Source of the DNA: Chloroflexota bacterium
GTDB lineage: Bacteria > Chloroflexota > Dehalococcoidia > UBA2979
DNA length: 34,410 nt
Assembly (NCBI GenBank): GCA_009837285.1
Contig: VXTU01000039.1
Location: 1-34,410 of the forward strand
Reading direction: 5' to 3'
The position numbers and the translations under genes are program-made. The notes under the pieces are model-generated. The model was given only the letters and a program-made list of their open reading frames with translations, was not told the origin of the DNA and made no database searches. Below, piece by piece: positions 233 through 32,875 of the stretch. Within the stretch, counting starts at the first letter, position 1; every line of letters starts with the position of its first letter.

Positions 233-1120
233 GTGGTAGCTACCGAGAAGCCCGAGTACCGCGTCGTCGGAACAAGGCCACTCCGGCCGGACGGCGCCGA
301 CAAGGTGACCGGCCGCGCGCAGTACGGCGTCGACGTGTCGCTGCCCGGCATGCTCTACGGCCGCGTGCTGCGCAGCCCGCATGCCCACGCCACCATCAAG
401 AGCATCGACACCTCGAAGGCCGAGGCGCTGGACGGCGTGCGCGCCGTCTGCACCTTCGCCGACCTCCCGATTCAGGACGAGGAGACCGTCGTCGACATCG
501 GTGAGGGCGCGGCCGAGGGGCGCTGGATGGCGCGCCTCGTCTTCGCCGACGACAAGGCGCTGTTCAAGGGTCACGCCGTGGCCGCGGTCTGCGCCACTGA
601 CCTCCACATCGCCGAGGACGCGCTCGAGTTGATCGAGGTCGAGTACGAGCCGCTGCCCGTGCTCCTGGACGCGCGCGAGGCGATGGATGAGAACGCGCCC
701 CTGCTGCACCCCGACCTGCTCACGGAGGAGGTCGCCGGCTTCGGTGTCGGCGACGTCTCCACGAGCAAGCCGACGAATATCGGCAAGCACTGCGAGTTCG
801 CGTTCGGCGACGTCGACGCGGGGTTCGAGGACGCCGAGATCATCCTCGAGCGCGAGTTCGAGACCTCGGCGTACCACCAGGGCTACCTGGAGCCGCAGAA
901 CGGCGCGGCAATGTGGAACCCGGACGGCGAGCTGACCGTGTGGGTGAGCAGCCAGGGCCCGTTCGTCGTGCGTGCGCAGCTGGCGCAGCTCCTCAACTTG
1001 CCGCTCAGCAAGGTGAAGGTCGTGCCGATGGAGATCGGCGGCGGCTTCGGCGGGAAGATCCCGGTCTACATGGAGCCGATGGCGGCCATCATGTCGAAGA
1101 AGCCTGGCCGCCCCGTGTAG
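233..1120 (+). CDS. Xanthine dehydrogenase family molybdopterin-binding subunit, N-terminal part (ends at in-frame TAG)
   Basis: This is the N-terminal ~295 residues of a CO/aldehyde/xanthine dehydrogenase-type large subunit, the Mo-cofactor subunit of a molybdenum hydroxylase. Family hallmarks are the opening RPDGADKVTGRAQYG, LRSPHAHA, and GGGFGGK near the end, the Mo-cofactor contact loop. The GTG start is supported by AGGAGGT seven bases upstream. The frame ends with TAG at 1118-1120 after GRPV, where relatives usually continue with Lys (GRPVK). The next codon is ATG and the same frame continues for 468 more residues with the rest of the family sequence. The stop therefore looks like an AAG-to-TAG change inside one ~764-residue gene. 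The FAD (CoxM) and 2Fe-2S (CoxS) partner genes are not next to it. Either the gene is a recent pseudogene or sequence error, or the two parts are made separately. Confidence 0.85.
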   Translation: MVATEKPEYRVVGTRPLRPDGADKVTGRAQYGVDVSLPGMLYGRVLRSPHAHATIKSIDTSKAEALDGVRAVCTFADLPIQDEETVVDIGEGAAEGRWMARLVFADDKALFKGHAVAAVCATDLHIAEDALELIEVEYEPLPVLLDAREAMDENAPLLHPDLLTEEVAGFGVGDVSTSKPTNIGKHCEFAFGDVDAGFEDAEIILEREFETSAYHQGYLEPQNGAAMWNPDGELTVWVSSQGPFVVRAQLAQLLNLPLSKVKVVPMEIGGGFGGKIPVYMEPMAAIMSKKPGRPV

Positions 1121-2527
1121 ATGAGCATGACGCGCCAGGAGGTGCTCGAGTCCACCGGCCCGACGCCCGGCTCGTGGGTGCGGGTGAAGCTCGGCGCGAA
1201 GCGCGACGGCACGCTCGTCGCGGCCGACGTGGCCCTGGCCTTCGAGTCGGGCGGGTTCCCCGGCTCGGCGTTCGTCGCGGGGGCGCGCTGCGCGCTCGGG
1301 CCGTACGACATCCCGAACATGCACGTCGAGGGCTGGGACGTGGTGGTCAACAAGCCCAAGGTCGCGGCCTACCGCGCGCCGGGCGCGCCGCAGACCGAGT
1401 TCGGCGTCGAGTCCGTCATCGACGAACTCGCCGAGATGCTCGAACGCGACCCGATGGACCTGCGCCATCAGAACCGAGCCGTGCAGGGCACGCGTCTAGC
1501 GGACGGCACGGCGCTGGGCGTGATCGGCAACACCGAGGTCATGGACGCGATCTCGCAGAGCGACCACTACCGCTCCGAGCTGCAGGGCGAGAACCGCGGA
1601 CGCGGTGTCGCCATGGGCTACTGGGGCAACGGCGGCATGGAGACGAGCGCGCTCGCGAACGTCAACGCCGACGGCACCGTCAGCCTCGTCGTCGGCACCG
1701 TCGACATCGGCGGCCTGCGCGCGACGCACGCGATGCAGCTCGCCGAGACGCTCGGCCTGCCGTACGAGGACGTGCACCCGAAGGTGGTCGACACCGACAG
1801 CGTCGGGATGACCTCGGTCACTGGCGGGAGCCGCAGCACGTTCGCCGGCGGGTGGGCGATGCACGAGGTCGGCCTGGACCTCCGCCGCCAGCTGGAGGCG
1901 CGCGCCGCACAGATCTGGGAGGTCGACGCCTTCGAGGTGACCTACGGCGACGACGCCGTGATCCACGGCCCCGCGGATGGCGACGAAGCGCGCAGCATGA
2001 CCTTCGGCGAGCTCGCCGGCCAGCTGGCGATGACCGGCGGCATGATCCAGGGCAGCGCCTCGGTGCGGCCGGAGACCGTCGGCGTGACCTTCGCAGGCCA
2101 CATCGTGGACGTCGAGGTGGACCCCGAGACCGGCAAGGTCGACATCCTCCGCTACACCGCCGTGCAGGACGTCGGCACCGCCATCCACCCCTCGTACGTC
2201 GAGGGGCAGATCCAGGGCGGTGCGCTGCAGGGCGTCGGGATGGCGCTGACCGAGGAGTACTTCTACGACGACGACGGGGTGATGCGGAACTCGAGCCTGC
2301 TCGACTACCGCATGCCAACGGCGCTCGACACGCCGATGATCGACGCGATCCTCGTCGAGGTGCCGAACCCCGGCCATCCGTACGGGGTACGGGGCGTCGG
2401 CGAGGTGCCGATCGTGCCGCCGCTGGCGGCCGTCGCCAACGCGATCCACGATGCGGTGGGCGTGCGCATGGCGAAGCTGCCGGCCACGCCGCGCGCGATC
2501 CTCGAGGAGTTGGAGCCGGACGCCTAG
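1121..2527 (+). CDS. Xanthine dehydrogenase family molybdopterin-binding subunit, C-terminal part (downstream of the in-frame TAG)
   Basis: This 468-residue open frame is in phase with the preceding fragment and completes the molybdenum hydroxylase large subunit. Recognisable parts are AYRAPGAPQTEFGVES (~84-100), the Mo-pterin segment TSVTGGSRSTFAGGW, and the C-terminal GVRGVGEVPIVPPLAAVANA, whose Glu matches the catalytic Glu of xanthine dehydrogenases. The ATG follows the TAG directly (TAGATG), so termination-reinitiation is conceivable, but no Shine-Dalgarno is visible just upstream. The sequence shows no decay beyond the single stop, which argues for a recent mutation or a base-calling error. 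A MoaD/ThiS-like gene follows after 35 bases. The substrate cannot be inferred; an aldehyde or N-heterocycle is typical. Confidence 0.85.
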   Translation: MSMTRQEVLESTGPTPGSWVRVKLGAKRDGTLVAADVALAFESGGFPGSAFVAGARCALGPYDIPNMHVEGWDVVVNKPKVAAYRAPGAPQTEFGVESVIDELAEMLERDPMDLRHQNRAVQGTRLADGTALGVIGNTEVMDAISQSDHYRSELQGENRGRGVAMGYWGNGGMETSALANVNADGTVSLVVGTVDIGGLRATHAMQLAETLGLPYEDVHPKVVDTDSVGMTSVTGGSRSTFAGGWAMHEVGLDLRRQLEARAAQIWEVDAFEVTYGDDAVIHGPADGDEARSMTFGELAGQLAMTGGMIQGSASVRPETVGVTFAGHIVDVEVDPETGKVDILRYTAVQDVGTAIHPSYVEGQIQGGALQGVGMALTEEYFYDDDGVMRNSSLLDYRMPTALDTPMIDAILVEVPNPGHPYGVRGVGEVPIVPPLAAVANAIHDAVGVRMAKLPATPRAILEELEPDA

Positions 2528-11665: not shown

Positions 11666-12160
11666 GTGCCCAAGCGTTCGTCAAAGAAGCAGCAGCCCGA
11701 CTTGCGCGAAGGTGGCACCGTCGCCACGAATCGTCGCGCCCGCTACGACTACTCGATCGAGACGACCTATGAGGCGGGCATGGTGCTTACCGGGTCGGAG
11801 ATCAAGTCGATCCGCGCGGGCCAGGCCAACATCGCCGAGGGCTTCGCGCGTTTCCAGCGCGGCGAGCTCTGGCTCCACAACGTGCACATCGCTCCGTACG
11901 CGCCTGCCGGTGAGAACCACGAGCCGACGCGGACGCGCAAGCTCCTCCTGCATCGCGGTGAGCTCGAGCGCCTCGAGCGGGCGCTCCGCGAGCAGCCCGG
12001 CATGACCATCGTGCCGCTGCGGCTCTACCTGACCCGCGGGCTGGCGAAGGTCGAGATCGGGCTCGCGCGCGGTCGCCGCCAGTACGACAAGCGGCAGGCG
12101 ATCGCGAAGCGCGAGGCCGAGCGGACCATGCAGCGAGCCCTCCGCCGAGACGCGCGCTAG
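11666..12160 (+). CDS. smpB: SsrA-binding protein SmpB
   Basis: This 164-residue protein is the partner of tmRNA in rescuing stalled ribosomes. The N-terminal lysine-rich tail precedes the core: ATNRRARYDYSIETTYEAG, then VLTGSEIKSIRAGQANIAEGF, and the strand LHNVHIAPYAP. The C-terminal tail is basic (RGRRQYDKRQAIAKREAE), as needed to enter the mRNA channel. The GTG start gives the usual family length. The tmRNA gene itself starts only 44 bases downstream on the same strand, so protein and RNA are adjacent. Confidence 0.96.
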   Translation: MPKRSSKKQQPDLREGGTVATNRRARYDYSIETTYEAGMVLTGSEIKSIRAGQANIAEGFARFQRGELWLHNVHIAPYAPAGENHEPTRTRKLLLHRGELERLERALREQPGMTIVPLRLYLTRGLAKVEIGLARGRRQYDKRQAIAKREAERTMQRALRRDAR

Positions 12161-12204: not shown

Positions 12205-12560
12205 GGGGACGAAAGGGGTCGACAGCGGTACACGGACACGGTTTGCGGGTCGAGGCGCCACCAACCTCGTAAAACCGGTGGCACCTTCATAACAGGCGAT
12301 AAAGAACTCGCCCTCGCCGCTTAACAGGCGGTGACGTTGTCCCCGGCTCACGCCTGGCGAGCTGGGAGACGGCGCCGAAATGCCGGGCTGCAATTGCGGG
12401 CGCGCGTCTCAGGCCTCGCAACCAAGACTACTGGGACTGGCCGGCAGTCTCCCTCGTCGGCGCAGGGATGCCGGTAAGAACCCGCCGCCGACTACGCCCG
12501 TAGCAGATCCGTGACGGAGGCTTGCTGGACGGGGAGTTCAATTCTCCCCCGTCTCCACCA
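12205..12560 (+). ncRNA. ssrA: Transfer-messenger RNA (tmRNA)
   Basis: The ends pair as a tRNA-like acceptor stem: GGGGACG at 12205-12211 with CGTCTCC at 12550-12556, followed by ACCA. The 3' part has a T-arm (GGGGAGTTCAATTCTCCCC). The 5' part carries GGGGTCGACAGCGG, typical of the D-loop region. The tag reading frame is GGC GAT AAA GAA CTC GCC CTC GCC GCT TAA at 12295-12324, encoding GDKELALAA. ALAA is the standard ClpXP/ClpAP degron end. The resume codon is Gly (GGC), not the common Ala (GCN). Position right after smpB supports the call. Confidence 0.95.
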
Positions 12561-17754: not shown

Positions 17755-18204
17755 CTAGCCGCGCGACGGCAGGAGCACCGAGCCGGTCGCCCGTGTCGCC
17801 ATCCCCTCGCGGTCGTTCTCGATGGAGAGCTCGATCTCGACGACGTTGCCGTCCTCGGTCTGCTCCTTGCCGACGACCTCGCCGCTGACCACGATGGTGT
17901 CGTCCGCCATGTTCATGCGGCGCATCTCGAAGTGCAGCTTGCGCACCCAGCCATCGGGGCCCGCGAAGTCTGCGAGCAGCCGGTAGAGGTTCGCGCGGGT
18001 CCAGCCCGTGTTGTAGAAGATCCCGCTGTGCCCGCCGGACTGGGCGAACGGCGGGTCGTGGTGGACGGCGTAGAAGTCCTGCGAGCCGCTCACCTGCTTG
18101 ACCATCTCGGTCCACGTCAGGTCATAGCTGAAGCCGGGGAGCTTGTCGCCCACCTCGATGTCCTCGAAGTAGGTCTGCGGCAGCGGGTCGAGCTTGACGG
18201 CCAT
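17755..18204 (-). CDS. MaoC-like hot-dog dehydratase/hydratase (catalytic half of a pair)
   Basis: This 149-residue hot-dog protein carries the hydratase-2 active-site pattern as SGSQDFYAVHHDPPFA (~39-54), with Asp43 and His48/His49 as the catalytic pair. It adds water to enoyl-CoA or removes it from 3-hydroxyacyl-CoA. The start ATG 18204 follows GGGAGGA at six bases; a longer start would overlap the upstream gene and has no better site. The gene lies 25 bases behind a FAS1-like MaoC gene on the same strand, and the two very likely form a heteromer. In actinobacterial steroid degradation a similar pair (ChsH1 with the N-terminal half of ChsH2) hydrates a branched, side-chain enoyl-CoA. Confidence 0.85.
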   Translation of the reverse strand: MAVKLDPLPQTYFEDIEVGDKLPGFSYDLTWTEMVKQVSGSQDFYAVHHDPPFAQSGGHSGIFYNTGWTRANLYRLLADFAGPDGWVRKLHFEMRRMNMADDTIVVSGEVVGKEQTEDGNVVEIELSIENDREGMATRATGSVLLPSRG

Positions 18205-18229
18205 GATGGATCCTCCCTGTGGGGTGAGC

Positions 18230-18805
18230 TTACTTCTCCTGCAGCCCAAGCGGGTCGGGGCTCGCCTCGACCTCGCCCGGCTCGCGGTGGCGGAGGCCGG
18301 TGTTCCGGCTGATCGCCACCAGTTCGTCGTCCTGGTTGTAGAACCGCGTCTCGTTCACGATCCAGATCGCGTTCGGGTCCAGGCGGATCGGTTTTACGAA
18401 CACGTCGGCGACCGAGGGCTGCGACCACAAGCGGTCGCCGACCTTGATGGGCCGGAGGAACTCCCACGTCGTGCTGAGGTTGATCGCTCGGTCCCCGATC
18501 GCCGGCACGTCGAGCGCCGGGTCACCGCGACTGGGGATCTCGTGGCCGCCGTTCCAGGAGGGCCACGTCCCGTCGCCGGCGAAGTAGTCCGCCATCACGC
18601 CCGGGGCGATCGTCTGGCCGTACTGGCTCTCGCTCCCGTACTGCGGGTCGAGGAACAGCGGGTTCGTGCCGTAGCACATGTGCTCATGGCGTCGGATCGG
18701 GTCGTGCTCGACGGGGTAGAGCCCGTCGGAGCGCTGACCCAGCTTGCCGACGTACTCGGCGCGCACCTTGTCGATGTCGAAGTCTTGCGGGGCGACCTTC
18801 GCCAT
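18230..18805 (-). CDS. FAS1-like MaoC-family dehydratase (partner half)
   Basis: This 191-residue protein has the N-terminal MaoC/FAS1-like dehydratase pattern YGTNPLFLDPQYGSESQYG, followed by APGVMADYF. The Asp/His pair of the active hydratase motif is not visible here (GTNPLFLD), so it is probably the structural, CoA-binding partner of the MaoC protein encoded downstream. Such two-gene MaoC sets act on bulky acyl-CoAs. The start ATG 18805 follows GGGGGAGG. The gene heads a two-gene unit with its catalytic partner; the DUF35 and thiolase genes on the same strand 2.4-4 kb upstream are likely functional companions. Confidence 0.82.
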   Translation of the reverse strand: MAKVAPQDFDIDKVRAEYVGKLGQRSDGLYPVEHDPIRRHEHMCYGTNPLFLDPQYGSESQYGQTIAPGVMADYFAGDGTWPSWNGGHEIPSRGDPALDVPAIGDRAINLSTTWEFLRPIKVGDRLWSQPSVADVFVKPIRLDPNAIWIVNETRFYNQDDELVAISRNTGLRHREPGEVEASPDPLGLQEK

Positions 18806-18901
18806 GCGCCTCCCCCTTCACGTCGTGTCCGATTGCGGGGCCAAGCATACCGGATGCCGCGCTCGCGACGCTCGCCGTCGCCCGGTGGTCGGGTCGCGAT
18901 C

Positions 18902-20461
18902 CTAGTTGAGGCGCCAGAGCTCGGCTTCGGGGAAGAACAGGAACCACCCGAGCCAGAACGCGATGTGCCCGTTGACGCGCTCGAGGCGCTCCCCTTCGGG
19001 GCCGACGAGCGCCTCCTCGGTCACGGTCCACTCCGCGCCGTCCTCGTCGAGGACGGTGTCGGGCTCCGGGCCGGGCGAGAACGTGTTGCGCCCCCGTTCG
19101 AAGGAACGGATCTCGCCGCCGTAGTCGTAGTTCGGCCACGGGATGCGCACCAGGATGTCCTCGACGTCGGCGAGGCCGCGCTGCGCCACCAGCACGATGG
19201 GTGAGCCGGCGAACTCGTCGTTGAGGACCTGCTCCTGCACGAGATCGTCGATGACCCATGCCTTGCGGATCCCGCCCAGGCGAAGCCCGTAGACGCGCTC
19301 CTTCGGGTGCAGCTCGTCGCTGCGCTGGAAGGCGGGGAAGCGGACCTCGTCCGTGCGGAAGTAGTCGCCGTAGGGCTGGCCGAACACCTCGTAGACGCGG
19401 TCGTGGCCGGTCTTCACGTCCAGCACCTCGGTCTCCGGGTGCTGCTCCAGCCAGTCGCGCCACGAGGTGGTCACCACGGGTAGCAGGTTGAGTTGCACGG
19501 CGTCCGGGTCGGCGGCGAGCGAGCCGATCACCGGCTTGCCGGTGAACTGGTTCCACAGCGACCGCGTAGTGCGGTCGTACATCAGCTTGTTGGTGCGGTA
19601 GAGCAGGCCCGAGGTGCCGAAGACGTAGGTGTTGCCGTCGGGTGCGCGCCCGTCGTACGCGATCGCGGCGCCGCAGAGCGTGCAGTACGCGAGTGAGACC
19701 GGGACGCCGCCGACGACGTCGTTCGACAGCTCGTGCCAGTCCATGAGGCGCACCGGGTACGCCATGGCCTCGCCGTTGAGGGCGATGCCGAAGACGGGCT
19801 CGTTGGGGTCGAGGTACGTCGCCTCCTCGGGGCTCAGCCGGGCGGGGTTGTCGAGCGACGGGATGCCGTCCACGCGCACGCCGCCCCACAGCACCTCCTC
19901 GACGCGGATGGTCGTGGGGGCGTCGGCGTACAGGAATCCCGCGAAGAGCGGGTCGATGCGCGACATGAGCTCGCCCTTCCACGCGGTGAAGCCGGGCGGC
20001 GGCTCCAGGTCGGTGCCGGCGTACCACTCGAACCACCCGAACCAGTGCGGCCCGAGGTCGACGCCCGACATGGCGACAAGCGCATCCTGGATGACGTTGA
20101 GGGACTCGATGCCCTGCACGCCCCGGTGGAAGCTGGCGCGGATGATCTCGATGAAGGGCGCGATGAACCGGTAGTCCCGGGCCTCAATAATGCGCTCGAC
20201 CGTCGAGACCGTGAGTTCGAGGTTGGGGCCCGCCTCGAGCAGGTTCTCAAGCAGCTGCCGCGCCTCGGCGTCCGGGGTTGGGGGCGTCGGCGTTGGCTCG
20301 GGCGTCGCGACGGCCGTTGCTTCCACCGGCTCCTCGGCCGGTTCGTCATCGGTGCAGGCCCCGACGAGCAGCAGCGCGAACGCGAGGGAGGCGAGGACCA
20401 CGTGCTGCCACGACGAGACTGTGCGGTGGCGCGCGGGCGCCCCGCCGGATGGTGCGCGCAC
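18902..20461 (-). CDS. DUF3179 domain lipoprotein
   Basis: This ~519-residue protein begins with a basic stretch, a hydrophobic helix (VVLASLAFALLLVGA) and the lipobox LVGAC (Cys36), then a Thr/Pro linker (EATAVATPEPTPTPPTP). It should be a surface lipoprotein. The DUF3179 region covers the latter two thirds: DGIPSLDNP, EPVFGIALNGEAMAYP, VSLAYCTLCGAAIAYD, FGTSGLLYRTNKLMYD and SLWNQFTGKPVIG. The paired Cys in YCTLCGAA is a family hallmark, but no reaction is known. GTG 20461 is preferred because AGGAG lies five bases upstream; TTG 20482 has nothing comparable. It is separated from the MaoC pair by 96 bases with no clear promoter. Confidence 0.85.
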   Translation of the reverse strand: MRAPSGGAPARHRTVSSWQHVVLASLAFALLLVGACTDDEPAEEPVEATAVATPEPTPTPPTPDAEARQLLENLLEAGPNLELTVSTVERIIEARDYRFIAPFIEIIRASFHRGVQGIESLNVIQDALVAMSGVDLGPHWFGWFEWYAGTDLEPPPGFTAWKGELMSRIDPLFAGFLYADAPTTIRVEEVLWGGVRVDGIPSLDNPARLSPEEATYLDPNEPVFGIALNGEAMAYPVRLMDWHELSNDVVGGVPVSLAYCTLCGAAIAYDGRAPDGNTYVFGTSGLLYRTNKLMYDRTTRSLWNQFTGKPVIGSLAADPDAVQLNLLPVVTTSWRDWLEQHPETEVLDVKTGHDRVYEVFGQPYGDYFRTDEVRFPAFQRSDELHPKERVYGLRLGGIRKAWVIDDLVQEQVLNDEFAGSPIVLVAQRGLADVEDILVRIPWPNYDYGGEIRSFERGRNTFSPGPEPDTVLDEDGAEWTVTEEALVGPEGERLERVNGHIAFWLGWFLFFPEAELWRLN

Positions 20462-20544
20462 AGGCGCTCCTCTCGGGAGCAAGGTGGCAGCGGGTGCGCT
20501 ACCAGCCTATCACCCCGTGCGGCTCTGACCCGCCGCAACCAGTG

Positions 20545-20868
20545 CTACCGCACTGCGTTCTCGACTGCCTCGGCCAGCCAGGCATTCAGGCTCTTGCCTT
20601 CGGCGGTCGCGCTCTCGGTGGCGGCGCGGTGGAGTTCCGGTCGGATTCTCAAGGGGATCTTGCCTGAGTAGACCTTGTCCGGCGTGCGTCCGCGCTCGGC
20701 GCACACCTTCAGGTACTCGTCGATGGACGCAGCGAAGGCATCTCGTAGTTCAGGTACCGAGGTTCCCTGGAACGTGATCACGTCACGGGTGCCCACCACT
20801 TCGCCGTGGAATACCTCGGCGTCGTCGTCGAACATGACCCTCGCCCGGTATCCGCCGTACTCCATCAT
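20545..20868 (-). CDS. hicB: HicB family antitoxin
   Basis: This 107-residue protein has the HicB pattern: an N-terminal partial RNase H-like fold (YRARVMFDDDAEVFHGEVVG, then ITFQGTSVPELRDAFAASI) and a C-terminal ribbon-helix-helix (GKIPLRIRPELHRA, GKSLNAWLAEAVENAV) that binds DNA. It would neutralise the HicA toxin encoded 10 bases upstream and repress the operon at its palindrome. Order hicA-hicB is the usual one. The start ATG 20868 directly precedes a second ATG. Confidence 0.88.
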   Translation of the reverse strand: MMEYGGYRARVMFDDDAEVFHGEVVGTRDVITFQGTSVPELRDAFAASIDEYLKVCAERGRTPDKVYSGKIPLRIRPELHRAATESATAEGKSLNAWLAEAVENAVR

Positions 20869-20878
20869 GAGTTGTGCC

Positions 20879-21139
20879 TCACTCGCCGGGCTCGATCCCC
20901 GCCTCGGAGAGGAATCTCCGTACGGAGGCGACAGACCCCTTGTCCGCCTCCTTGCGCGGGTGTGGCCGGTGCAGGATCGCGATCACGCCGTTCAACTCGA
21001 TCGCTACGCGCGAGCCCGCCCTCTCCTCGATGTCCGCGCCACAGGCCACGAACAGTGACTCGATGTCTGTCCAGGCGATGCCCGCCGACGCCGGGCGGCG
21101 AAAGATCGCCGCCAGCGTCCGGCGATGTCTGCGCCTCAC
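20879..21139 (-). CDS. hicA: HicA family toxin (mRNA interferase)
   Basis: This 86-residue protein matches HicA toxins, small double-stranded-RNA-binding-fold proteins that cleave mRNA. The sequence runs RRTLAAIFRRPASAGIAWTD, SLFVACGADIEERAGSRVAI, then LHRPHPRKEADKG and VRRFLSEAGI; the His in LHRPHP occupies the catalytic place. GTG 21139 gives the family's normal N-terminus (compare the common KxRKTLEAIF opening). No Shine-Dalgarno is present, and a -10 box (TATCAT) ends only six bases before the GTG, so the mRNA may be leaderless. Confidence 0.88.
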   Translation of the reverse strand: MRRRHRRTLAAIFRRPASAGIAWTDIESLFVACGADIEERAGSRVAIELNGVIAILHRPHPRKEADKGSVASVRRFLSEAGIEPGE

Positions 21140-21145
21140 CGAATC

Positions 21146-21166
21146 ATGATACCACGATGTGATATC
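21146..21166 (-). promoter_or_regulatory. Promoter and operator of hicAB
   Basis: GATACCAC (21148-21155) and GTGATATC (21159-21166) form an inverted repeat with 7 of 8 positions matched and a 3-base spacer. On the minus strand TATCAT (21151-21146) is a good -10 overlapping one arm, so binding by HicB would block the polymerase. No good -35 is visible. Confidence 0.6.
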
Positions 21167-21184
21167 ACTGGAGGTCTCGTGCGC

Positions 21185-21598
21185 TTACGCAGGCTCAAAC
21201 ACAGGGATCGGGTACTCGCCTTCGTCCTGCTCCTCGAACGCCACGCGCACGCGCATGCCGCACTCGATGTCTTGCGTCGGGTCGTCGACGCCGACGATGT
21301 TCGTGAAGACGCGGAACCCCTCGTCGAGGTCGACGTACGCCACGGCGTAGGCGCCGAGGTCGGCGAAGCGCGGGTTCCGGTTCTGGCGTACGACCGAGTA
21401 GGTATAGACCGTGCCTTCGCCGGTGGATGTCCTCCACTCCATGTCGTCGGTCCCGCACTCGGTGCAGTGCAGGCGAGGCGTGAAGACCACCGCGTCACAG
21501 AGGTTGCAGCTCTGGTAGCGCAGCTCACGCTGCTTCACGCCCTCCCAGTACGGCTCGGTGTTCGGCTCGGGGAATCGTGGCTGTGGACGGTTCGGCAT
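21185..21598 (-). CDS. DUF35 protein: zinc ribbon plus OB-fold, thiolase partner
   Basis: This 137-residue protein has the DUF35 layout: an N-terminal helix (PNTEPYWEGVKQRELRYQ), a rubredoxin-like zinc ribbon (CNLCDAVVFTPRLHCTECG, two CxxC knuckles) and an OB-fold (GTVYTYSVV, LGAYAVAYVDLDEGFRVFTN, GMRVRVAFEE). DUF35 proteins act with Cys-less or SCP2-type thiolases and hold acyl-CoA at the shared active site. The thiolase gene is directly upstream, 43 bases away. In mycobacteria the same domain is the C-terminal half of ChsH2, which binds the aldolase Ltp2. The start ATG follows GGGAG. Confidence 0.87.
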   Translation of the reverse strand: MPNRPQPRFPEPNTEPYWEGVKQRELRYQSCNLCDAVVFTPRLHCTECGTDDMEWRTSTGEGTVYTYSVVRQNRNPRFADLGAYAVAYVDLDEGFRVFTNIVGVDDPTQDIECGMRVRVAFEEQDEGEYPIPVFEPA

Positions 21599-21641
21599 TG
21601 CTTCGTTCTCCCGTCGTGTCGGCTGGTCGAGGGTTGCTGCG

Positions 21642-22844
21642 CTAGTCGCGCGCGAGGATGACGGTGCCGCCCGAGTGCGACCCGCCGAGCGTGCCGCCGT
21701 TGCCGTGTGCGACCGCCAGGCTGGCCCCGTCGACCTGCGAGGTGGACTCGCCGCGCAGCTGCCGCACGGACTCGAGCAGCAGGAACAGCCCGCGCATGCC
21801 CGGGTGGTTCGAGGACAGCCCGCCGCCGTCGGTGTTCAGCGTCGGCTTGAGTGGGTTGTCGAAGCGCAGCCGGCCTCCCTGCACGAAGTCGCCGATCTCG
21901 CCCTTCCCGCAGAACCCGAGGTCCTCGATGCACGTCGCCGTGGTGATCGAGAACGAGTCGTAGATCATCGCGATGTCGATCTCCTCGGCCGTGATGCCGG
22001 CCTGGCCGAAGGCGATCGGGGCGCTCTGCGCGCCGGCGGTGGTGGTGATGTCGCCGCCGTTCTCGCGGTACTTCGTCGCCTCGCCGGTCCCGATGATCCA
22101 CACCGGCGGCTTGGCGATGTCCTGCGCGACCTCCGGCGAGACGATGACGAGCGCGCCGCCGCCGTCGCTGACCATGCAGCACTCGAGGAGGTGCAGCGGG
22201 TCCGCGATCACGCGGGAGTCGAGCACGTCGTCGATGGTGATCTCGCTCACCGGATGCACAGCGCCGAACTCCAGGTCGACCATGGCCTTCACGGCCTCCG
22301 GGTTGCGCATCGCGTGCGCGCGGGTGACCACGGACAGCTCGGCGAAGGCCTCCTCGGGCGTGCCGTAGTCGTGCATGTGGCGCATCTTCACCATGGCGTA
22401 GCCCGAGATGAGCGTGAGCCCGTAGGGGTCCTCCATGTTGCCCTGCCAGTTGGCGGGGCCTTGCCCGGTCATGCCGCCGGTACCGATGGCGCGACGGTCG
22501 GAGTGCGAGGTCGAACCGTAGCTCAACACCGCGACGTTGCAGGCGCCCGCGGCGATGTCGCGCAATGCGTGCGCGGTCTGGAACTCGAACGCCGAGCCGC
22601 CGACCTGCGTGGTGTCCGTGACGGTGGGGTTGATGCCGAGGTAGGCGGCCATGCCGAGGCCGCCGCCGCCTTCACCCTCGTCGCAGTCGTAGAGCCCGTC
22701 GACATCGGACCACGCGAGCCCGGCGTCCTCGAGGGCTGCACGTATCGACTCGACCTTGATCTGCATCGCGCTGACTCCCGGCGCGACGCGCAGGGGGTAC
22801 TCGTGGATCCCGGCGATCGCCGCCAGGCGCTCCTGCGTGGCCAT
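21642..22844 (-). CDS. Thiolase-fold (SCP2/Ltp-type) protein lacking the nucleophilic Cys
   Basis: This 400-residue protein has the thiolase fold: GIHEYPLRVAPGVSAMQIKV, then the domain-linking VSDGGGALVIVS, the active-site region GGLSSNHPGMRG and the C-terminal AVAHGNGGTLGGSHSG. At the place of the nucleophilic Cys (NNxCxSG in true thiolases) the sequence reads TTQVGGSAFEF, with no Cys. The C-terminal Cys of active thiolases is also replaced (AHGNGG). It therefore probably does not do Claisen chemistry by the normal mechanism. Such Cys-less proteins paired with DUF35 include Ltp2, a retro-aldolase of steroid side chains. AAGGAG precedes the ATG at 22844. The downstream DUF35 gene is its likely obligate partner. 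Confidence 0.86.
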   Translation of the reverse strand: MATQERLAAIAGIHEYPLRVAPGVSAMQIKVESIRAALEDAGLAWSDVDGLYDCDEGEGGGGLGMAAYLGINPTVTDTTQVGGSAFEFQTAHALRDIAAGACNVAVLSYGSTSHSDRRAIGTGGMTGQGPANWQGNMEDPYGLTLISGYAMVKMRHMHDYGTPEEAFAELSVVTRAHAMRNPEAVKAMVDLEFGAVHPVSEITIDDVLDSRVIADPLHLLECCMVSDGGGALVIVSPEVAQDIAKPPVWIIGTGEATKYRENGGDITTTAGAQSAPIAFGQAGITAEEIDIAMIYDSFSITTATCIEDLGFCGKGEIGDFVQGGRLRFDNPLKPTLNTDGGGLSSNHPGMRGLFLLLESVRQLRGESTSQVDGASLAVAHGNGGTLGGSHSGGTVILARD

Positions 22845-30785: not shown

Positions 30786-31304
30786 CTAGTCGATGAGCGC
30801 CGAGATCACCTCGTCGATGACGGCGTCAGCCTTCTCGTAGAGTTCCTCGTCCGTCGCATCCTGGATGGGGTGGTCGACGAACGCGCGCGCCATGGCGGGC
30901 AGGCCCAGTGAGCCGGCCTGCGCCTCAGCCGCGTCGACGAACTCGTCGGAGGCCATCATCACCGAGGGGATGCCCTGAATCTCGAACCAGACCGTGTCGT
31001 GCACACTGCACGTCGTGCACGAGCCTCAGTCGGCGAGGGCTTCGATGACGAAGTCCACCTCCTCCATCATCTTGCGCCGTAGCTCGTCCGGCGCCGGCTT
31101 GGCGAAGGTCGGCTTCATGTAGCGCTTCACCGTCACCTCGGGCACGCGCTCGTTCAGCAGCGACTCGATGCGGTCGAGCAGAACGTTCCCGCGCGGCTTG
31201 CTGATGTCGAGCAGGCCGACGGTGCCCGTGATGTGCTCGGGACGCTTCGTGAGTTGCCTCCCGATCGGTTCCCGTTCGTCTGTCGGGTCAAGAATCGTCG
31301 TCAT
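30786..31304 (-). CDS. UGSC family selenoprotein (in-frame TGA read as selenocysteine)
   Basis: Read through one TGA, this is a 172-residue protein: the first 92 codons, TGA at 31028-31026 as residue 93, then 79 more residues in the same frame. The junction reads ALAD-U-GSCTTCSVHD, exactly the U-G-S-C motif that names the UGSC (seleno)protein family. Conserved flanks are TVGLLDISKPRGNVLLD before it and WFEIQGIPSVMMASDEF and AGSLGLP after it. The redox residues would be Sec93, Cys96 and Cys99. A perfect hairpin begins three bases after the TGA (SECIS-like, separate entry). The start ATG overlaps the stop of the upstream thioredoxin-fusion gene by four bases, so the pair is co-translated. Function is unknown; a redox role with the thioredoxin domain next door is a reasonable inference. 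selABCD are not in the window. Confidence 0.88.
30997..31022 (-). promoter_or_regulatory. SECIS-like hairpin just after the in-frame TGA
   Basis: On the minus strand TCGTGCAC (31022-31015) pairs perfectly with GTGCACGA (31004-30997) around the loop GACGTGCAGT. The stem starts three bases after the TGA and the loop is centred ~16-18 bases from it, about where bacterial SECIS apical loops lie. The loop contains GU. It lies inside the coding sequence, as bacterial SECIS elements do. Confidence 0.6.
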
Positions 31305-32875
31305 ACGACCTCCTCGATCTTCCTGCTATCCAGCCCGCTCGCCCAGCCCGGGAAGATCGAGGTGAACTTCCCGGCGCCGCTGCCGGCGATCACGATGTGG
31401 ATGTTATCGGGTGACTGGAACTTTGGTATGAGCTCCTCGAGCTGCTCCTCGCTCGGCCCGTCCGGCCCGAAGCTCTCGGGCGGGATGCCCGCGCCCGCTC
31501 GCTCGTCGATCAGGAGCTCGCGCACCGGTCGGTGGGTGAGCTCCCAGAGCCGCCGCTGGAGGTCGGCCCGCGTCCAGCCGTCCCGGCCGATGGTGTCGAC
31601 GTGCTCGGGGCAGAGCACCATCAAGATCTCACCCGACCTCGATCGGGGGTGACTGATCGCCTGCAACGACATCGCGAGGCTGCCCGCGAGCGCCTCGGCG
31701 GTGCGAGAGGTCTGGTCGACGCACACCAGCGGCCCCGGGGACGCGGGGAACACCGAGACCACGCTCTCGGCGGCCTCGTACCCGTGCTTGACGTGGAACG
31801 GCTCCCAGGGGCTGCGCTCTTCGCGTTCGGCGAACGCGAGCGTGAACTTCGCGGGCGACCCGAGCATGGAGCGCTCCGTGCCGCCCGGCTTCGCCCCGCC
31901 CACGTTACGCAGCACGAGGCGGACGGCCCGTCCGATCGTCGCGTTCGCGCGGTTGCCCTGGCCGAGCGCGCCGAGTCCGGAGTTCATCCCGATGCGGTCG
32001 CGGATCGGCCCGTTCACGATGACGGCCGGCGAGGCGCCCATGGTGGTCGCCATCACGCCGTGCGCGTTGAATTGCTCCGTACACACCGCCTCGACCGCGG
32101 CGATCACGACGGGCAGGTACTCGGGCTTGCAGCCGGCGAGGACCGCGTTGATGGCGATCTTCTCGACCGTCGCCTCACCCATGTTGGGCGGAACGATGGC
32201 GACCACGTCCTGCGCGTCGCGACGGCTGCCGGCCAGCATGCGCATCACGCGCTCCGGGCTGGGCGCCACCACGGGCAAGCCGTCGGTGAAGCCCTGGTCG
32301 AACATGAACTCGTCGACATCGTCCGCGCTGCCGACCTCGATGCGCCGTGCTCGGAGCGGGCTTCCCTCGGCTTCCGCCGCGAGTCGCTCGGCGATGCCGG
32401 GCTCGAGCGTGCGCGAACCGCAACCGGGCTGCGACAAGGGGTAGCGCTCCCAGTCGACGTCGCCTGAGTCGGCATCCGAAAGGTCGGCGAGCCGGCCGTA
32501 AAGCGCGCGCCAGTCCTCGCGGCCGAAGCCGACGAAGCGGTCGACCTCGGCGCCGTCGCGGTCGGTGAGGATCACGGTCGGCACGGTCTCGAGGTCGTAG
32601 CGGTACGAGACGCCGAGCTCCGAGTCGTCGAGGAGTGGCAGTGTCAGGTCGTGCCGTTCGACGAGGATCGCGTTGCCCTCGGCCTCCTGGCCGATCGCCA
32701 GCACGTCGACGGCCGCGCCGAAGGCGCGGTGCGCGCCCTCGATGAGCGGCATCGAGGTGCCGCACGTGGGACAGTCCTCCTTGACGAAGGCGAGCAGCGC
32801 CGGGCGACCGGTCGGGAACGCGCGCTCCTCGCTGCGCTGGTCGAGCAACGCGAAGCCAGGCAGCTCGCTCACCAT
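31301..32875 (-). CDS. Thioredoxin-like domain fused to a large conserved domain, partner of the UGSC selenoprotein
   Basis: This 524-residue protein starts with a thioredoxin/TlpA-like domain (~1-150) with active site EDCPTCGTS (Cys35, Cys38), a cis-Pro strand TVPTVILTDRDG and no signal peptide. The rest (~175-524) is a conserved domain with the segments FTDGLPVVAPSPERVMRML, VPPNMGEATVEKIAINAV, AGCKPEYLPVVIAAVEAV, NSGLGALGQGNRANATIGRA and SPWEPFHVKHGYE. I recall this domain beside UGSC genes in Actinobacteria and marine Chloroflexi, but know no reaction for it. AAGGAG precedes the ATG. The stop overlaps the UGSC start, which implies a common pathway; the Trx domain could reduce the Sec/Cys centre. 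Confidence 0.8.
   Translation of the reverse strand: MVSELPGFALLDQRSEERAFPTGRPALLAFVKEDCPTCGTSMPLIEGAHRAFGAAVDVLAIGQEAEGNAILVERHDLTLPLLDDSELGVSYRYDLETVPTVILTDRDGAEVDRFVGFGREDWRALYGRLADLSDADSGDVDWERYPLSQPGCGSRTLEPGIAERLAAEAEGSPLRARRIEVGSADDVDEFMFDQGFTDGLPVVAPSPERVMRMLAGSRRDAQDVVAIVPPNMGEATVEKIAINAVLAGCKPEYLPVVIAAVEAVCTEQFNAHGVMATTMGASPAVIVNGPIRDRIGMNSGLGALGQGNRANATIGRAVRLVLRNVGGAKPGGTERSMLGSPAKFTLAFAEREERSPWEPFHVKHGYEAAESVVSVFPASPGPLVCVDQTSRTAEALAGSLAMSLQAISHPRSRSGEILMVLCPEHVDTIGRDGWTRADLQRRLWELTHRPVRELLIDERAGAGIPPESFGPDGPSEEQLEELIPKFQSPDNIHIVIAGSGAGKFTSIFPGWASGLDSRKIEEVV

Follow-up and report, generated by a model that had tools for sequence, protein, structure and literature searches.

The closest described relatives of the genes analyzed here are the igr operon of M. 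tuberculosis (ChsE1-ChsE2, ChsH1-ChsH2, and Ltp2), ORF40-44 of C. testosteroni (ChsE1E2H1H2-Ltp2), and the CtShy-CtSal bile acid hydratase/aldolase (structure 9myr; PMC12329534, PMC11321319). As far as the available part of the C. testosteroni report goes, its genes are clustered, its ChsH2 is a fusion of a MaoC and a DUF35 domain, and the two domains retain hydratase and aldolase activity when expressed apart, so that a split ChsH2 gene appears workable (PMC12502768). The available parts of the bile acid reports indicate that Shy functions without an inert MaoC partner (PMC12329534, PMC11321319), and that TcLtp2 uses Tyr294 and Tyr344 and CtSal uses Tyr302 and Cys304 (PMC12329534). Here, we compare these systems with a 34,410-nucleotide stretch of DNA from a marine Chloroflexota bacterium (Dehalococcoidia, UBA2979; GenBank assembly GCA_009837285.1, contig VXTU01000039.1, positions 1 to 34,410), hereafter the window, in which two MaoC-type hydratase genes (MaoC1 and MaoC2) neighbor a thiolase-superfamily gene and a DUF35 gene. 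We favor, with a probability of roughly 0.58, a reading in which the window encodes two neighboring, probably separate enzymes, and in which the MaoC pair serves a split, igr-like side-chain system together with a gene set on another contig of the same genome, C54. The genes concerned are as follows:

22844-21642, minus strand: thiolase-superfamily gene, assigned by Pfam (Thiolase_C_1, E 1e-41)
21598-21185, minus strand: DUF35 gene with zf-ChsH2 and OB_ChsH2_C domains (Pfam), whose product is likely a partner subunit for the thiolase-like protein encoded next to it
21139-20879, minus strand: HicA toxin-like gene (Pfam PF07927), an apparent bystander
20868-20545, minus strand: HicB antitoxin-like gene (Pfam PF05534), an apparent bystander
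20482-18902, minus strand: DUF3179 lipoprotein gene (Pfam PF11376, E 2e-76), between the two gene pairs
18805-18230, minus strand: MaoC1 gene, FAS1_DH_region (Pfam PF13452, E 2e-9), ChsH2 N-domain-like by fold
18204-17755, minus strand: MaoC2 gene, predicted catalytic hydratase subunit, ChsH1-like by phmmer and profile, with a D43-x4-H48 motif

An initial annotation, made from the letters of the window, had read the thiolase, DUF35, and MaoC genes as a single module with the domains of ChsH1, ChsH2, and Ltp2, in which the parts of ChsH2 are separate genes with a DUF3179 lipoprotein and hicAB between them. Much of this description stands: all four minus-strand open reading frames were confirmed, the intervening genes match the Pfam families listed above, and DUF35 is indeed a gene of its own, with a C4 zinc motif (C-x2-C-x10-C-x2-C).

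That MaoC1 and MaoC2 are two hot-dog subunits, one catalytic and one inert, of a ChsH1/ChsH2-N-type pair, predicted to assemble into an active hydratase, is well supported by sequence profiles and a fold model. MaoC2, which has zero Pfam matches, finds ChsH1 as its best solved relative both by phmmer (E 3e-6) and with a 14-row profile (E 3e-11, ranked first), and its D43-x4-H48 motif is invariant across the 14 alignment rows. MaoC1 aligns without the D-x4-H motif, and the best VIA match of its AF2 model (pLDDT 88.5, 34 rows) is 4w78_A, the ChsH2 N-domain (Z 15.4 over 162 residues), followed by Shy (Z 13.4) and HadA-type proteins (Z about 12). One correspondence in the initial annotation changes accordingly: the FAS1-like MaoC1 is the counterpart of the inert ChsH2 N-domain, and the catalytic MaoC2 is the counterpart of ChsH1. 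The two genes adjoin in 47 of 48 MaoC1 relatives; the nearest named match of MaoC1 itself comes from Chloroflexi bacterium SB0661_bin_44 (91%), and further close matches are from Chloroflexota or Dehalococcoidia.

The window belongs to a 2.4 Mb draft genome of 153 contigs (G000). Its contig C54 carries, in order, CaiB, a double CaiB, Ltp2, DUF35, and two acyl-CoA (acyl-coenzyme A) dehydrogenase (ACAD) genes, with no MaoC pair there. The C54 aldolase (G000:C54:36705-37874) has TcLtp2 as its best match (E 3.5e-66), falls within the Ltp2 clade (support 100/100), and contains YENF and ECY motifs equivalent to Tyr294/Tyr344. Both ACADs beside it (L101 10454-12757) were identified by Pfam, and the second of the two, the only one searched, has Tcur3481 as its best solved match. 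Gene orders in some other genomes bring the MaoC pair and this set together. In a congener, G001, a single-strand run reads CaiB-CaiB-Ltp2-DUF35-MaoC1-MaoC2-ECH with gaps of 35-236 bp between matches; its MaoC proteins are 78 and 84% identical to the window pair, and its thiolase, which belongs to the Ltp2 clade and has both YENF and ECY, is 72% identical to the C54 Ltp2. A second congener, G002, has the MaoC pair on a 3 kb contig with ECH only and Ltp2 on another contig, and both congeners additionally carry CaiB, a further MaoC pair (MaoC1' and MaoC2'), DUF35, and two ACAD genes. Another genome, G055, has a longer cluster of ACAD, ACAD, an Ltp2-clade thiolase (with an in-frame TAA), DUF35, MaoC1, and MaoC2. 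Together, the orders in G001, G002, G055, and C54 point to one set of parts shuffled between loci. The G055 cluster also contains a gene (L177:7899-9365, minus strand) in which a KAS III/HMG-CoA-synthase-like domain is fused to DUF35.

Co-occurrence was counted in 60 genomes, including the window's own and mostly from its genus and family, with presence called at identities of at least 46% for the MaoC pair, at least 48% for Ltp2, and at least 64% for the window thiolase. Listing genomes with both, with the pair but no partner, with the partner but no pair, and with neither, the MaoC pair and Ltp2 gave 12/0/5/43 (p 4e-9), or 7/0/3/31 at the genus level (p 5e-6), and the MaoC pair and the window thiolase gave 8/4/17/31 (p 0.05). 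Judged by sequence, igr-like sets comprising an ACAD pair, Ltp2, DUF35, and a MaoC pair are present in this non-actinobacterial lineage. As in the igr operon, the MaoC pair resembles ChsH1/ChsH2-N, the DUF35 protein has a C4 motif, and an Ltp2-clade aldolase with both tyrosines accompanies a ChsE-like ACAD pair in the same genome; unlike in the igr operon, ChsH2 is represented by two genes, hydratase and aldolase lie on different contigs, CaiB CoA-transferases sit beside the aldolase, and the thiolase encoded in the window falls in a clade other than that of Ltp2. The enzyme set likewise resembles that of C. testosteroni, which differs in its fused ChsH2 and clustered genes. The genome additionally encodes a KshA-like Rieske oxygenase on contig C101 (G000:C101; L238:1426-2592, minus strand), the sole KshA_C match in the genome (92 bits), whose best solved matches are KshA, 3-ketosteroid 9alpha-hydroxylases (E 2e-24).

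From these families, motifs, clades, gene orders, and co-occurrence counts, we infer the following complexes, reactions, and substrate. CaiB-type CoA-transferases encoded on C54 would put an acid on CoA, and the two ChsE-like ACADs of that contig would form the enoyl-CoA. The window MaoC pair would then hydrate it as a heterodimeric enoyl-CoA hydratase, in which MaoC2 would provide Asp43 and His48 and the inert MaoC1 would make room for a bulky acyl group. Finally, the C54 aldolase, a Tyr/Tyr member of the Ltp2 clade that has a DUF35 partner of its own, would cleave the C-C bond in a retro-aldol reaction. The likeliest substrate would be a sterol-like or other alicyclic side chain.

The window thiolase has different features. 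Its active-site columns in a motif alignment of 72 unique sequences, drawn from 87 thiolase hits and restricted to those longer than 900 bases, read Gly-Gly at the nucleophile position, Y295-D-S297-F, SN-H347-PG, and HG-N382-GG. The initial description of the protein as Cys-less is accurate for the active site; six cysteines (positions 54, 102, 222, 223, 305, and 312) all lie outside it. Thiolysis by the usual Cys would not be possible. The first residue of the Ltp2 Tyr294/Tyr344 dyad is kept as Tyr295 and the second is replaced by the His of SNHPG, and the position of the catalytic Cys304 of Sal is occupied by Ser (YDSF, not YDCY). In a 76-row tree, from which rows shorter than 340 aa were excluded and for which the window clade was reduced to the window itself and 10 of its relatives, the window thiolase groups with 4u4e and 23 others in a clade of 25 rows (100/95). 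The Ltp2 clade (26 rows) and the Sal clade (20 rows) are both separate from it, each with 100/100 support. Motifs and tree thus rule out an assignment as Ltp2 or Sal. An ordinary SCP2 thiolase, a placement that by the initial annotation's own terms would have refuted it, is ruled out as well, since the protein has no nucleophile Cys and stands apart from the Cys-bearing rows of the tree. The closest solved relative is 4u4e (E 1e-78), an uncharacterized thiolase-like protein of Sphaerobacter thermophilus that shares the clade and the YDSF and HPG motifs, at 42% identity over the 348 residues of the fold alignment. For the window thiolase, the AF2 model is weak (pLDDT 72.6, with loops 114-143 and 340-349 below 50) and was therefore used for fold only; the scores of its matches 6esq, 9myr, 6ok1, 7yvy, and 4u4e span about 2 Z. 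The Cys-less nucleophile site, the YDxY/F motif, and the DUF35 partner are shared with CtSal as far as the available parts of its description show (PMC12329534, PMC11321319), whereas the Ser at the Cys304 position and the clade are not. The window DUF35, whose best solved relatives are 9myr_B and 6ok1_B, has C4 zinc ligands as in TcChsH2, unlike the C3H1 ligands of Shy.

The thiolase and DUF35 genes also keep their own company. Among 28 loci with close relatives of the window thiolase (64% or more identity), a DUF35 gene adjoins the thiolase in 25, and contig ends truncate two of the remaining three. A metallophosphoesterase gene is nearby in 15 of these loci, and neither the MaoC pair nor DUF3179 is near the thiolase in any of them (0/28 each); a lone, weak HicB match lies 4 kb from the thiolase in L061. 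The constancy of DUF35 and the recurrent neighbors, with the MaoC pair never among them, indicate that the thiolase-DUF35 pair has conserved company of its own. In eight loci (L065, L072, L077-L080, L084, and L086) an acyl-CoA synthetase gene follows downstream on the same strand, its AMP-binding family established on one of the eight, which provides a hint about the pathway. On sequence grounds, we regard the window thiolase and its DUF35 as belonging to a third Cys-less clade and as a putative acyl-CoA C-C lyase. The two proteins would form a separate complex that most likely acts as an aldolase/lyase on acyl-CoA, Tyr295 serving as the base and His347 perhaps as the acid; in some relatives it would be fed by the acyl-CoA synthetase.

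Several observations weigh against a MaoC pair working with the C54 set. The window lies on a separate contig from C54 in a draft bin, so the link between them rests on orthology and co-occurrence, and kinship among the genomes confounds co-occurrence and inflates all of these p values. The steroid ring pathway is represented by one KshA-like gene only, further ring-cleavage genes not having been sought. The seven genes from 22844 to 17755 share the minus strand with intergenic gaps of about 10-100 bp, and a promoter/terminator scan of the run found zero terminator-like or sigma-70-like sites, a blank that says little because the DNA is 69% GC; co-transcription of the MaoC pair with the window thiolase is thus possible. 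The window thiolase is, moreover, enriched together with the MaoC pair at the genus level (p 0.006). This enrichment, the shared strand, the short gaps, and the blank scan would fit the single module of the initial annotation, in which the window MaoC pair hydrates and the window thiolase-DUF35 cleaves, the operon having been interrupted by hicAB and DUF3179, as would the Cys-less active site and a near-identical genome, G003, which has both halves at the ends of contigs broken on the two sides of the hicAB stretch. We nevertheless consider that explanation improbable, because the four-gene neighborhood, whose conservation had been named beforehand as its test, is absent from all 28 relative loci, the MaoC pair is missing from 17 of 25 genomes with a window-type thiolase, the thiolase lies outside the Ltp2 and Sal clades and lacks their acid residues, and the MaoC pair of G001 sits with an Ltp2. 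The window thiolase is probably not the partner of the MaoC pair. The claimed domain correspondence with ChsH1, ChsH2, and Ltp2 thus survives for the MaoC pair and lapses for the thiolase; likewise, the suggested C-C bond-cleaving system in a non-actinobacterial lineage is borne out by the igr-like sets, with an Ltp2-type aldolase on another contig as the pair's better partner.

A further challenge concerns the MaoC pair itself, which could be the hydratase of another, CaiB-coupled CoA pathway acting on medium-chain or dicarboxylic acyl-CoA, with no side-chain cleavage. Within 5 kb of the 48 relatives of the pair, CaiB occurs in 32, an ACAD in 7, DUF35 in 5, a thiolase in 4, and thiolase and DUF35 together in only 3, and loci in Halieaceae are ordered MaoC1-MaoC2-CaiB; many such pairs, those of Halieaceae included, may therefore act without an aldolase. 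The MaoC1 sequence profile also ranks HadA-type dehydratases (E 7e-8 to 4e-6) above ChsH2-N (E 8e-4). We find this alternative unlikely for the window pair given that ChsH1 is the best solved relative of MaoC2 and ChsH2-N the best fold match of MaoC1, that the G001 run includes Ltp2-DUF35 and the G055 cluster two ACADs, an aldolase, and DUF35, and that an Ltp2 accompanies the pair in all 12 genomes that encode it. As for the window thiolase-DUF35, an enzyme that uses its unusual active site for condensation, acyl transfer, or decarboxylation, instead of an aldolase, would be in keeping with a superfamily among whose members are acetoacetyl-CoA thiolase/HMGS, benzoylsuccinyl-CoA thiolase, and PhlABC (fold Z of 40-44.5 to the model) and with the retained His347 of the HP motif. 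Such an activity appears rather unlikely, as Cys is absent at both the nucleophile and the second positions and Tyr295, part of the YDxF motif, is common to both proven aldolase clades.

A side observation concerns thiolase paralogues about 35% identical to the window protein. Loci chosen for a flagged in-frame TGA in such paralogues number 17 (L042-L058) in 16 genomes and contain 19 genes (for example, L047:897-2075 and L052:1562-2653), which group with CtSal in the 76-row tree. All 19 genes have a TGA in the column that corresponds to N382 of the window protein (NG-U-GG), and four have one at the column of the essential Sal Cys304 (YD-U-Y) too; in all 16 full-length rows the last TGA is followed by 18 codons before the next stop, which encode a conserved tail. 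In seven homologues without TGA there, the YD-U-Y site reads YDCY (five) or YDSF (two), and the NG-U-GG site has Asn or Ser. SelB scores over the cut-off in 13 of the 16 genomes and tRNA-Sec above 60 bits in 12, with at least one of them in 15. A hairpin following the YD-UGA has one covarying pair of 10 among only 4 sequences, and RNAalifold found no conserved hairpin after the NG-UGA. A DUF35 gene lies beside the TGA-containing gene in all seven loci with wider flanks (L178-L184). No thiolase or aldolase is listed in Table 1 of a 2026 inventory that covers 119 families of prokaryotic selenoproteins (PMC13188914), and a literature search on selenoprotein thiolases found nothing relevant, a weak absence with subscription journals outside its coverage. 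By their sequences, these Sal-like paralogues are likely a selenoprotein family new to the inventory; if so, selenocysteine (Sec) at Sal-like active sites would be an unusual acid-base use of this residue.

The genes between the two pairs look like bystanders. The DUF3179 lipoprotein has a lipobox-like start (LVGAC) and a CTLC motif, and its gene adjoins the MaoC pair in G003 too. In that genome, the match to the window ends at 21176, shortly after DUF35, and picks up again at 20515. The intervening hicAB stretch of 20515-21176, unmatched at the G003 contig ends, may be a recent insertion or replacement. A 50% identical DUF3179 paralogue (L100:10264-11799) lies near another thiolase on contig C139, and the DUF3179 family is included among selenoprotein families (UxxC/T) in the inventory cited above (PMC13188914). 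Past the MaoC2 end of the run, a convergent F420/LLM gene lies on the plus strand. The divergent gene upstream of the thiolase is one we take to be a metallophosphoesterase.

Elsewhere in the window, a UGSC-type selenoprotein gene (31304-30786, minus strand) reads ...EALAD-U-GSCTTC... through a TGA at 31028-31026, which indicates that the lineage uses selenocysteine; SelB is present in the genome. The large reading frame next to it (31301-32875, minus strand) encodes a thioredoxin-like CPTCG motif close to its beginning. A gene at 233-2527 (plus strand), presumably a CoxL/XDH-like, molybdenum-hydroxylase-like gene, is interrupted by an in-frame TAG (1118-1120) that is either a mutation or an assembly error; the G003 copy, 93% identical, is open there. 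A tmRNA (12205-12560, plus strand; tag GDKELALAA) directly follows a reading frame at 11666-12160 that we assume to be SmpB-like.

Degradation of sterol-like compounds has been considered before for Chloroflexota of the SAR202 group. A sterol-like route for SAR202 was proposed from CYP125, CoA-transferases, and general beta-oxidation, and the available part of that report names no aldolase and has the word 'thiolase' 0 times (PMC5395668). The available part of a second study calls experimental evidence for sterol degradation by SAR202 missing and assigns the complete ring pathway to Actinobacteria and Proteobacteria only (PMC5790920). We found no literature joining Chloroflexi, thiolase, and DUF35, Chloroflexi were absent among the matches listed for Ltp2/ChsH1, and none of the matches listed tied igr genes to SAR202 by title or term counts; these absences, too, are weak for want of subscription journals in the coverage.

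As a tentative and still doubtful hypothesis, this lineage may have spread DUF35-thiolases into three acyl-CoA aldolase branches: an Ltp2 type with the Tyr/Tyr dyad; a Sal type in which the catalytic acid and a neighboring loop residue can be Sec; and the window branch, with Tyr295 and His347 and with Ser in place of the Sal Cys. As separate genes, these would be mixed with MaoC pairs and CoA-transferases to cut sterol-like and other alicyclic side chains. The window MaoC pair and the separate DUF35 genes would then represent a natural split of ChsH2, whose counterpart halves, according to the available part of the C. testosteroni report, worked apart when separated by genetics (PMC12502768). 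Together, the C54 gene run and the window MaoC pair would constitute a small, testable enzyme set for C-C side-chain cleavage in Chloroflexota, the phylum that includes SAR202.

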